Source of the DNA: Sphingosinithalassobacter tenebrarum
GTDB lineage: Bacteria; Pseudomonadota; Alphaproteobacteria; Sphingomonadales; Sphingomonadaceae
Assembly (NCBI RefSeq): GCF_011057975.1
Contig: NZ_CP049109.1
Coordinates: forward strand, 682,001-746,000
Length of the DNA: 64,000 nt
Direction of reading: 5' to 3'
Below, in pieces: positions 443 through 17,524 of this stretch; the first letter of the stretch is position 1, and each line of letters opens with the position of its first letter. Made by a program: the position numbers and the translations under genes. The notes under the pieces were generated by a model that made no database searches, was not told the origin of the DNA, and saw only the letters and a program-made list of their open reading frames with translations.

Positions 443-1495
443 TCAACTGCGGCGCTGTTTCTTGCCCTCCAGCGCGGAGAGGACGCCGCGCAGGGTCTTG
501 AGTTCCTGGCTCGACCAGCCGGGCTTTGTCAGCAGCGTGCGCAGCGTGCGTCGGGTGGCGGGCGTGCGTTCGGGCGGATGATAGAAGCCACTGGCTTCGA
601 GCATCGCATCGAGATGCGCGATCATCCCGTCGAGCTCGCCCTGCGGTGCGGGTGGATCATGGTCCTCCAGCGTCGGCTGCACCAGATCGGCTTGTTTCGA
701 CCATTCATAGGCGACGAGGATCACTGCCTGCGCCAGATTGAGCGATCCGAATTCGGCATTGATCGGCACGGTGACGATCGTTCCAGCGACGGCGACGTCG
801 TCGGTCTCCAGCCCCGAGCGTTCGGGACCGAACAGGATGGCGGACTTGCCCGGCGCGGCATGGATCGCCTGGGCGGCCTCGTCGGGTTTCACCACCGGCT
901 TGGTGACGCCGCGCTTGCGCACCGTCGTGGCATAGACATGCGTGCAGTCGGCGACGGCATCGGCGACGCTTTCAAAGATGCGCGCCTTCTCGAGGACGAT
1001 GTCCGCGCCGCTCGCCGCAGGCCCGGCAGAGGGATTGGGCCAGCCATCGCGCGGGGAAACGAGCCGCATTTCGGTCAGCCCGAAATTCAGCATCGCCCGC
1101 GCCGTCTTCCCGATATTCTCGCCGAGCTGCGGACGAACGAGGACGATGGCGGGGGGAGGGGTGCTATTGTCTTCCCCTCCCGTTTGGTTCGAGCGCGCGT
1201 CGAGCGAAGTCGAGACGCGCTGTCGAGAACGCGCAGCGCTGGATACACCTTCCCAATCGCCCCGGATCAGCGCCTCCTTCTTCTTCACCGACCAATCCTT
1301 GATCTGGCGCTCGCGGTTCAATGCCTCGTCACGCGTCTGGAAATATTCGCTGAAGACCAGTTCCACCGGCCGACGCTCGCTGGTGTATCCCGGAAAGGCG
1401 CCAGCATGGTGCTGGGCCATACGCTGATCAAGATCTTCGGTATGGCCTGTGTAATAGCTGCCATCCGAGCAGCGGAGGATATAGACCCAGAACAT
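443..1495 (-). CDS. GIY-YIG endonuclease domain fused in frame to TrmJ-type tRNA 2'-O-methyltransferase
   Basis: Two domains are read in one frame. Residues 1 to about 85 are a compact GIY-YIG nuclease domain of the YhbQ/UPF0213 type (start MFWVYILRCSDGSYYTG, then DQRMAQH, and a conserved E in RERQIKDW). A linker of about 30 residues follows, encoded by a palindromic repeat. From about residue 110 a SpoU/TrmH SPOUT methyltransferase begins (PPPAIVLVRPQLGENIGKTA, GPERSGL, SLNLAQAV), matching TrmJ, which 2'-O-methylates position 32 of tRNAs. No ATG, GTG or TTG precedes the TrmJ part at its usual start, so it appears to be translated only as the fusion. An upstream ATG at 1600 is in frame, but its first 35 residues are encoded by a repeat arm; the ATG at 1495 is the normal GIY-YIG start. 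It lies downstream of nrdR on the same strand. Whether the nuclease is active or merely a passenger is unknown. Confidence 0.85.
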   Translation of the reverse strand: MFWVYILRCSDGSYYTGHTEDLDQRMAQHHAGAFPGYTSERRPVELVFSEYFQTRDEALNRERQIKDWSVKKKEALIRGDWEGVSSAARSRQRVSTSLDARSNQTGGEDNSTPPPAIVLVRPQLGENIGKTARAMLNFGLTEMRLVSPRDGWPNPSAGPAASGADIVLEKARIFESVADAVADCTHVYATTVRKRGVTKPVVKPDEAAQAIHAAPGKSAILFGPERSGLETDDVAVAGTIVTVPINAEFGSLNLAQAVILVAYEWSKQADLVQPTLEDHDPPAPQGELDGMIAHLDAMLEASGFYHPPERTPATRRTLRTLLTKPGWSSQELKTLRGVLSALEGKKQRRS

Positions 1496-1568
1496 CAGCG
1501 GGTTTCCGGGGTTCTCGACCGACGCTTCTCGACAGGCTCGAAGCTGCTCGAATCGAACGGGTGGGAGG
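1176..1568. mobile_element. GIY-YIG gene cassette bounded by inverted palindromic repeat arms
   Basis: The left arm (1176-1230) and the reverse complement of the right arm (1511-1568) both start with CCTCCC, both carry a TTCGAGC block, and both end with GTCGAGAAC. They belong to the same family as the inverted pairs at 2060, 29140 and 53256. Only the GIY-YIG coding part lies between the arms. The cassette sits exactly at the 5' end of the TrmJ coding sequence and seems to have replaced its start codon. The arms show directly in the sequence. Treating the whole as a mobilised unit is my inference. Confidence 0.6.
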
Positions 1569-1580
1569 GGGCAGTCGCGC

Positions 1581-2042
1581 TCACCCTTTCCCCACCTCAT
1601 TTACCGTCCCGGCAAATTCCTCGAAATCGCGCGCCTCGCGGAAATCCTTATAGACGCTGGCGAAGCGGATATAGGCGACTGAATCGAGGCCTTTGAGGCC
1701 TTCCATCACCATTTCGCCGATCCGTTGCGCGGGGATTTCGGGATCGCCCTGCGTTTCGAGCTGGCGCTGGATGCCCGAAACGAGCTTCTCGATCGCAGTC
1801 GGCGCGATCGGGCGCTTGCGGCAGGCGATCGCCACCGAGCGCATCAGCTTGTCGCGCTCGAACGGCTCGCGCCGGTCCTCGGACTTCACGATCGTAAGAT
1901 CGCGCAGCTGGATCCGCTCGAACGTGGTGAAGCGCGCGGCGCATGCCTCGCACTGGCGGCGACGCCGGATCGCATTGCCGTCCTCGGTCGGACGGCTGTC
2001 CTTCACCTGGCTGTCTTCATGGGCGCAGAATGGGCAGCGCAT
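1581..2042 (-). CDS. nrdR: Transcriptional repressor NrdR
   Basis: A 153-residue protein with an N-terminal zinc ribbon (CPFC at 3-6 and CEAC at about 31-34) followed by an ATP-cone domain (about residues 49-139; [16 protein letters not shown]). NrdR senses ATP/dATP and represses ribonucleotide reductase genes by binding paired NrdR boxes. Both expected targets, nrdB (45 kb) and nrdA (48-50 kb), lie in this window. Its length is normal for the family. Its stop lies upstream of the preferred start of the next gene, with which it probably shares a transcript. A repeat separates it from glyA upstream. Confidence 0.97.
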
Positions 2043-16869: not shown

Positions 16870-16919
16870 GGGGAGCGCCGTTAGCAGGGTGTGGGGCGCT
16901 TGGGGAGGCCCTGAAATTA

Positions 16920-17524
16920 CTCCCCCGGCGGGGGCGGGGGACCGCCGCGAAGCGGTGGTGGAGGGGTATTGGCCGCAAACGCGGCGCTCGCGGCTAGCTA
17001 CCCCCCCCACCAGCCTGCGGCTGGTCCCCCTCCCCTGCGAGGGGAGGAACTGGTAGACTTCCTTCATGCTTCACGGCCCGAAACCGACGCAGCGCCGGGC
17101 GGCGAAACTCCGCCGCGAAATGACGCTGCCCGAGGGGCTGCTCTGGCGCGAATTGCGCAAACGCCCGGCTGGCCTCCGCTTCCGTCGCCAGCACCCGGCG
17201 GGGCGCTATGTCCTTGATTTCTTTTGCCCCGCCGCGCGTCTGGCGGTTGAAATCGACGGCGAGGCGCATGATCGTGGAAACAATCCCCGACGCGATGCCG
17301 CTCGCGACGATTGGCTGAAGGCGCAAGGCATTTGCGTACTCCGTATCCCAGCGCGGGAGGTGCTGAACGATCTCGATGCGGTGATGCGCTACATCACCGA
17401 CACCGCGAGCCGCCGATACCCCTCCACCGCCTGCGGCGGTCCCCCTCCCCCTCCGGGGGAGGAATAGATCGAAGTTCCTCCCCCGGAGGGGGAGGGGGAC
17501 CATGCGCAGCATGGTGGAGGGGTA
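16920..17524. mobile_element. DUF559 nuclease gene enclosed by four ctccccc-family repeats
   Basis: Repeat copies lie at 16920-16968, 16999-17049, 17417-17464 and 17475-17524. Each has an outer hairpin (ctccccc...gggggag) and an inner hairpin next to ggtggaggggta. Their orientations are A, B, gene, B, A, so each flank is an inverted pair. The gene starts 17 bases after the second copy, and its stop codon lies at the end of the third. A single further copy is at 6599. The arrangement is directly visible. That it moves or is maintained as a unit is inferred. Confidence 0.65.
17066..17467 (+). CDS. DUF559 (VSR-like fold) endonuclease domain protein
   Basis: 133 residues with the DUF559 pattern: RREMTLPEGLLWRELRKR, LRFRRQHPAGRYVLDFFCP and LAVEIDGEAHD. 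The acidic D and E residues of the second and third blocks match the PD-(D/E)XK/VSR-type site. Substrates of the family are not established to my knowledge. The last 16 or so residues (YPSTACGGPPPPPGEE) are translated from the repeat, whose outer hairpin contains the stop. The same kind of tail is frequent in alphaproteobacterial DUF559 proteins as I recall. Confidence 0.85.
   Translation: MLHGPKPTQRRAAKLRREMTLPEGLLWRELRKRPAGLRFRRQHPAGRYVLDFFCPAARLAVEIDGEAHDRGNNPRRDAARDDWLKAQGICVLRIPAREVLNDLDAVMRYITDTASRRYPSTACGGPPPPPGEE

Follow-up and report, generated by a model that had tools for sequence, protein, structure and literature searches.

The stretch of DNA analysed here (the window) is a 64-kb part of a 3.86-Mb chromosome present as a single contig. 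On its minus strand, glyA and nrdR are followed by one open frame of 385 codons in which a GIY-YIG nuclease domain is joined to TrmJ (Table 1). The GIY-YIG part lies between two inverted arms of a REP-like repeat, as the original prediction had it: the arms align in inverted orientation over 57 columns with a score of 45. The arm on the trmJ side was also proposed to be translated as a linker, which agrees with the open frame running from the GIY-YIG domain through the arm into TrmJ. The trmJ gene of the window indeed has no start codon of its own; its frame enters from the nuclease through one REP arm, and ATG, GTG and TTG are all absent in frame from the linker. The likely start of the fusion is the ATG at position 1495, giving a product of about 350 amino acids and about 38 kDa (38.4 kDa when computed with one extra N-terminal residue), close to the 39 kDa or so expected earlier.

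Table 1. Positions of the genes and repeats discussed (window numbering, except for the last line).
Feature	Position	Strand	Remarks
Fusion ORF	443..1600	-	GIY-YIG PF01541 + SpoU/TrmJ PF00588
GIY-YIG nuclease domain	1247..1495	-	PF01541, E 6.7e-19
REP arm, nrdR side (upstream of GIY-YIG)	1511..1565	-	CCCGTTCG at outer end
REP arm, trmJ side, read through as linker	1175..1230	+	CCCGTTTG at outer end
REP-encoded linker	1157..1246	-	without in-frame start codon, predicted disordered
TrmJ part of fusion	443..1156	-	PF00588, TIGR00050
nrdR, upstream neighbour at insertion site	1581..2042	-	PF22811, PF03477
Gene-less inverted REP pair between nrdR and glyA	2060..2138		fold z -6.9
DUF559 nuclease gene	17066..17467	+	PF04480, E 2.4e-28
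DUF559 arms, inverted copies of a different palindromic repeat family	~16916-17051, ~17409-17543
Gene-less inverted REP pair	29140..29226		fold z -8.4
Gene-less inverted REP pair	53256..53333		fold z -5.4
L003, third own short GIY-YIG gene, another subfamily	G000:C1:3511839-3512063		framed by CGTC REPs

At an E value of 0.001 the fusion matches PF01541 and PF00588 only, with no match to NUMOD or another DNA-binding domain. The conserved Tyr, Tyr, Arg and Glu of the GIY-YIG domain are present; in an alignment of 21 GIY-YIG sequences R, H and E are invariant in all and the motif tyrosines nearly so. The nearest solved relatives of this domain by sequence profile are the UPF0213 proteins BH0048 (1zg2) and EF2693 (1ywl), both deposited as hypothetical proteins. 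The TrmJ part scores 164.5 bits against TIGR00050, just below the cut-off of 167.15, and the best solved match to the fusion (Foldseek) is the TrmJ of Zymomonas mobilis (5gra, 69% identity). In the predicted model the two domains are folded and the REP-encoded linker between them is disordered (mean pLDDT 75, pTM 0.48; pLDDT below 50 at residues 91-111, in the linker). The best-matching named proteins are from Sphingomonas and close genera, and both domains occur in all of the best 120 of at least 8000 protein matches, own protein included.

As a control for the arms, a geometry of 250 bases before and 350 bases after a 219-base core was slid over the window (1227 placements). The median score was 20, and 45 was reached in six placements, all at 17201-17451, where a DUF559 nuclease gene lies between inverted repeats; this gene gives the only arm signal in the window stronger than that of the GIY-YIG locus. 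The trmJ-side arm matches the REP pattern with one mismatch (at G000:C1:683180). The tag of the window arms is CCGTTCG and not the CGTC of the CGTC REP superfamily. The three gene-less inverted pairs noticed earlier are real, folding as single-stranded DNA far better than their shuffles (the fold z of Table 1); by the same measure the single arms at the window GIY-YIG gene fold no better than shuffles (z 1.0 and -0.5). Elsewhere on the chromosome a gene-less REP array (L043, G000:C1:1272959-1273045) translates into a sequence that shares 69% identity with residues 2-30 (the upstream arm) of the ORF in the window, and is possibly a cassette minus its gene.

Among 121 genomes of the genus that were searched, the interval upstream of trmJ was read at 109 loci; 12 genomes fall outside this count, having no match or a partial one, or not having been fetched. 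The cassette is present at 53 of the 109 loci and absent from 56, by which we reject the idea of a unique accident. Nuclease and TrmJ share one frame at 50 of the 53 filled loci, 47 of these being open fusions without a stop in between; these are not counts of independent events, because the loci share ancestry. Where nrdR was read as well (52 filled loci), linker length takes 31 values between 84 and 252 nt, and 28 of these, found at 49 loci, keep the frame. As a control, the stretch separating nrdR from the GIY-YIG domain was measured in that same set; it is distributed over the three frames as 24, 15 and 13 loci. In 28 of the 47 fusions a start codon lies within 20 codons of TrmJ, and these loci may therefore yield other products besides the fusion. 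In the other 19, ATG, GTG and TTG are all absent from the last 20 codons before TrmJ, and in seven of the 47, the window included, from the whole linker.

At the loci that lack the cassette, a mechanical search found an in-frame start no more than 90 nt from the conserved TrmJ start in all 50 with nrdR read (GTG 24, ATG 17, TTG 9), and in 42 of these 50 the conserved TrmJ start lies 3-33 nt past the mapped nrdR end. These starts, along with the frame kept at 50 of 53 filled loci, support the proposal that an insertion captured trmJ. It had been predicted that related sphingomonads would lack the cassette and carry an uninterrupted trmJ with its own ATG: an own start is indeed found at all 50 cassette-free loci with nrdR read, in 17 of them an ATG, but the cassette itself recurs at 53 of 109 loci. 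Fusions without the repeat, which would have told against an insertion, are not the rule, the arm score being at least 30 at 44 of the 53 filled loci and lower at nine. It is plausible, as had been suggested for this locus, that tRNA methylation depends on the fusion. One cassette-free locus (L156, genome G177) has an nrdR-trmJ interval of about 400 nt and a trmJ with its own start. Four fusions (L009, L021, L023 and L132) have a second REP copy in the linker, again in frame; the copy appears to have entered the linker.

Both parts of the fusion are under constraint: dN/dS over ten close pairs, picked by hand, comes to 0.08 in the nuclease and 0.07 in TrmJ, and in the eight of those pairs with equal linker length it is 0.43 for the linker. 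A pseudogene or a sequencing artefact is rejected on the low nuclease value and on the occurrence of both domains throughout the best 120 of the at least 8000 protein matches.

The cassette can vary far more than what lies around it. In the 45 pairs with TrmJ identity of at least 95%, identity of the nuclease ranges from 45 to 99%; the values of 45-48% all involve L143, whose nuclease frame seems broken, and the next lowest is 56%. In one pair (L008/L117) TrmJ is 99.6% identical as protein and the nuclease 63%, with arms and linker differing as well; as DNA, identity is 97.5% in nrdR, 95.4% in trmJ and 72.1% in the nuclease. When this pair and L131/L173 are compared base by base, identity falls at the nrdR stop and recovers near the first conserved TrmJ codons. 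Eleven pairs were picked by hand: a drop is seen in eight (nuclease DNA 67-76%, flanks 86-98%) and none in three (nuclease 89-93%). The own locus and its nearest relative, L010, are one of the eight (92.4% for TrmJ and 65.5% for the nuclease, as protein). Since near-identical flanks can hold very different cassettes, the cassette has been exchanged as a block; where the site is fixed, ordinary homologous recombination could account for such an exchange. Mapped on the TrmJ tree, the distribution of the cassette takes 17 changes between presence and absence, and well-supported branches force at least four of these.

The same type of GIY-YIG gene is found at other sites of the genus. Of 31 distinct copies read away from trmJ (L036 and L203 being one copy), 14 are at the rnc-era junction, 16 at yqeY-dnaG (in two of these yqeY stands alone on the contig) and one elsewhere (L306). 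Altogether 83 of the 84 genus copies read occupy three junctions, nrdR-trmJ, rnc-era and yqeY-dnaG; six further listed copies, two of them adjoining trmJ, were not fetched and are outside the 84. At rnc-era and yqeY-dnaG all 30 copies run the same way as the genes beside them. Two loci from another family of the order (L041, L042) have GIY-YIG copies at other sites. A tree of the nuclease, which has 85 rows, few columns and many unresolved forks, groups largely by site, with nine site changes (least possible 3; shuffled mean 30.5). Being at 53 of 109 trmJ loci, and with the same GIY-YIG type at two other junctions, the cassette is a recurrent element. Fixed sites, patchy presence and exchange between strains are found together here, as they are in homing endonucleases, and the three-site pattern is the trace that a site-specific, homing-like element would be expected to leave, though taken alone it is no proof of cutting.

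The chromosome of the window has three short GIY-YIG genes with arms: the fusion, one at rnc-era (L002) and one of another subfamily (L003). The arms of the last are CGTC REPs, with a CGTC tag, a stem of 8-9 bp starting AT and a CCA tail. With two loop positions left free, the 28-base REP has 18 exact copies on the chromosome and 22 with one mismatch. Three of those copies are at the gene itself, and two pairs form dimers that face outward as at the gene, their starts 68 bases apart. Across the genus, the number of REP matches minus that of a control pattern has a median of 43 in the 75 genomes with the GIY-YIG type vs. 6 in the 46 without it (p 2.7e-7). When independent pairs of the TrmJ tree are compared, the link is without significance: the direction is the same at thresholds of 15 and 20, and at 30 the effect is gone. 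At least 20 matches occur in 12 of the 46 genomes without the nuclease, and fewer than 10 in 12 of the 75 with it. Of 25 genus genomes searched for Y1_Tnp, the domain of RAYTs, 23 gave no match, the own genome among them, and one copy is present in each of the other two; as mover of these repeats in most of the genus, RAYT is rejected on that account.

Beyond the genus copies at trmJ, the association of arms with short GIY-YIG genes was scored at several depths. Arms beat every local control in all five other own-genus copies and in 18 of 20 further genus copies. A class-level survey took 52 short GIY-YIG genes and eight uvrC controls from matches in 58 genomes, leaving out six short hits that were read separately and six short or weak ones. 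The arms beat every local control at 23 of the 52 genes and at none of the eight uvrC; two of the 23 are marginal (L071, 24 vs. 23; L086, 29 vs. 26), and at 29 of the 52 the arms do not beat the local controls. Many class-level arms are CGTC-tagged REPs, with CGTC, a stem starting AT and a CCA tail, the tag pointing outward. In two genomes (L081, L062) the arms around GIY-YIG genes belong to a different type of palindrome, which ends in GAAGCAATCCA.

Named genomes were scanned for the subfamily with an alignment of 14 GIY-YIG proteins, and the best 80 of the matches listed are considered here. As 13 of the 14 query proteins had arms beating their controls, this set is enriched for the subfamily. 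By their titles the loci are from Alpha-, Beta-, Gamma- and Deltaproteobacteria, Chloroflexi, Bacteroidetes, Planctomycetes, Omnitrophus, Patescibacteria, Bipolaricaulota and others; metagenome bins are numerous among these records, and a title there may be wrong for the contig. At 67 of the 80 the arms outscore every local control (L275, L298, L260 and L264 marginally, and with a low-complexity arm at L300). A score of at least 40 is reached at 54 of the 80, vs. 0.04% of 4551 control placements, and a score of at least 30 at 50 of 77 GIY-YIG genes vs. three of 169 other ORFs of at least 100 codons in the same loci. A strict CGTC hairpin is present beside the gene in 72 of the 80 loci, and 49 have such hairpins on both sides, against a background of 0.09 per 600 bases in those loci. 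Many arms contain more than one REP, and only in 28 of the 80 do the nearest hairpins of the two sides both face outward. A chance inverted repeat is rejected on the control comparisons made in the window, genus, class and subfamily sets.

The DUF559 gene shares the architecture of the GIY-YIG cassette. In genomes of the class an arm score of at least 30 was obtained at 17 of 30 loci tested (of 43 places listed). All 17 are among the 22 strong family matches, none among the eight weak partial ones, and no local control exceeded 30.

The most likely reading, in which we have considerable confidence, is that of a REP-bounded, homing-like GIY-YIG cassette that works much as a REPtron does with an unrelated nuclease. 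From the patterns described above, we infer both cutting by the nuclease and movement of the cassette. Cleavage by the nuclease would follow its recognition of the empty junction or of the REPs at the cassette ends, and alleles that are empty or hold a rival would then receive a copy of the cassette through repair or recombination. The gene-less REP dimers may be internally deleted derivatives of the cassette moved in trans, in the way proposed for REPINs and RAYTs. Neither cutting nor excision was observed, and neither was a target-site duplication or a new insertion. At the trmJ site the insertion separates a core gene from its start. The frame across the REP arm therefore has to remain open, TrmJ being made as a GIY-linker-TrmJ fusion, and this would also guard the cassette against loss by frameshift. 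We lean, somewhat less firmly, towards a wider proposal: across bacteria, short GIY-YIG nucleases would be the dedicated enzymes of CGTC- and CCGTTCG-tagged REPs, and so the enzyme that a report of 2013 found lacking (PMC3733652). They would fall within a broader class of repeat-bounded nucleases that also takes in DUF559 with its own palindrome family, and REP dimers would be the gene-less derivatives of such cassettes.

The nuclease could instead be a passenger, a housekeeping or repair enzyme exchanged by ordinary recombination, with REPs that spread by other means and tend to flank it. That REP matches far outnumber GIY-YIG genes in many genomes fits this, as do the 29 of 52 class-level genes that do not beat their controls and the loss of significance of the REP-nuclease co-distribution once kinship is corrected for. 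We nevertheless consider it unlikely: at 67 of the best 80 loci every local control is beaten by inverted arms on both sides, whereas this holds for none of the eight uvrC genes, scores of at least 30 single out the GIY-YIG genes (50 of 77) from other ORFs (three of 169), and the search for RAYT gave no match in 23 of 25 genus genomes. Rather less credible still is a single ancestral insertion at each junction, followed by vertical descent, many losses and fast divergence, with no mobility at present. It would account for a nuclease tree that groups largely by site and for three junctions holding 83 of the 84 genus copies read. It does not sit well with nuclease identities of 56 to 99% beside TrmJ proteins at least 95% identical (L143 set aside), with the sharp block edges in both pairs aligned, or with the 17 presence changes on the TrmJ tree, of which at least four are forced by well-supported branches.

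In the remaining alternative the fusion itself is what has been selected, the GIY-YIG domain having been recruited to act on RNA alongside TrmJ, a role suggested in 2006 for a single Erythrobacter fusion (PMC1564403, from the accessible part of the text). The strong constraint on the nuclease in the fusions (dN/dS 0.08) and the frame kept at 50 of 53 loci are what such a function would require. The same type of nuclease also precedes era and dnaG, however, 56 of 109 loci do without it, and both its type and the linker vary beside near-identical TrmJ, making a functional fusion very improbable as the explanation of the locus. It is the homing-like cassette that we compare below with known systems.

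Short repeats of the REP type occur widely in bacterial genomes, and the present results would give the CGTC superfamily a testable candidate enzyme in many groups. They would extend the principle of a REP with its enzyme to an unrelated nuclease fold, and offer a simple origin for REP dimers. In the trmJ case, the element would tie itself to a core gene as a translated protein start, with a repeat arm as the linker. No paper linking GIY-YIG with REPs was among the best-ranked results of a literature search, most subscription papers and preprints being outside its coverage.

The closest parallel is the REPtron, a RAYT (TnpA-REP) gene with GTAG REPs. The likeness lies in a small nuclease-type gene between inverted REPs, and in gene-less inverted dimers of the same REP family elsewhere in the genome, as in REPINs. 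The differences are that the enzyme here is a GIY-YIG one, unrelated to the HUH/Y1 transposase (PF01797), for which the search of the own genome gave no match; that the tags are CCGTTCG or CGTC, not GTAG; and that the cassette resides at a few core-gene junctions. The cassette is REPtron-like but not a REPtron, since neither its enzyme nor its tags are those of one. The accessible text of a further article (PMC12306157) mentions no RAYT, transposase or nuclease.

CGTC-tagged REPs were reported in 2013 without a dedicated transposase or other enzyme, as far as the accessible portion of that report goes, and dRS3 and RPE-4/RPE-6 were placed among them (Di Nocera, PMC3733652). The repeats that frame L003 and many of the best 80 subfamily loci, with their CGTC tag, AT-stem and CCA tail, are of this kind. 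Unlike the REPs of that portion of the report, which names no dedicated enzyme, those described here have a GIY-YIG gene inside, and the tag in the window is CCGTTCG (PMC3733652).

With GIY-YIG homing endonucleases of the I-TevI type the cassette shares the catalytic domain, fixed sites, patchy presence and block exchange. It differs in having no intron or intein host, no matched NUMOD, and inverted REP ends. A survey of 2006, in its accessible part, gave no GIY-YIG homing endonuclease in Alphaproteobacteria and asked whether other GIY-YIG proteins are molecular parasites (PMC1564403). The same part describes a GIY-YIG/SPOUT fusion in Erythrobacter litoralis, a single instance of the same kind of domain pair, which we can compare by its description only; repeats, recurrence, block exchange and conservation of frame do not figure in that account (PMC1564403). 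Mobility of the kind proposed here may explain how that fusion, reported as a single instance, came about (PMC1564403, to the extent of the accessible text).
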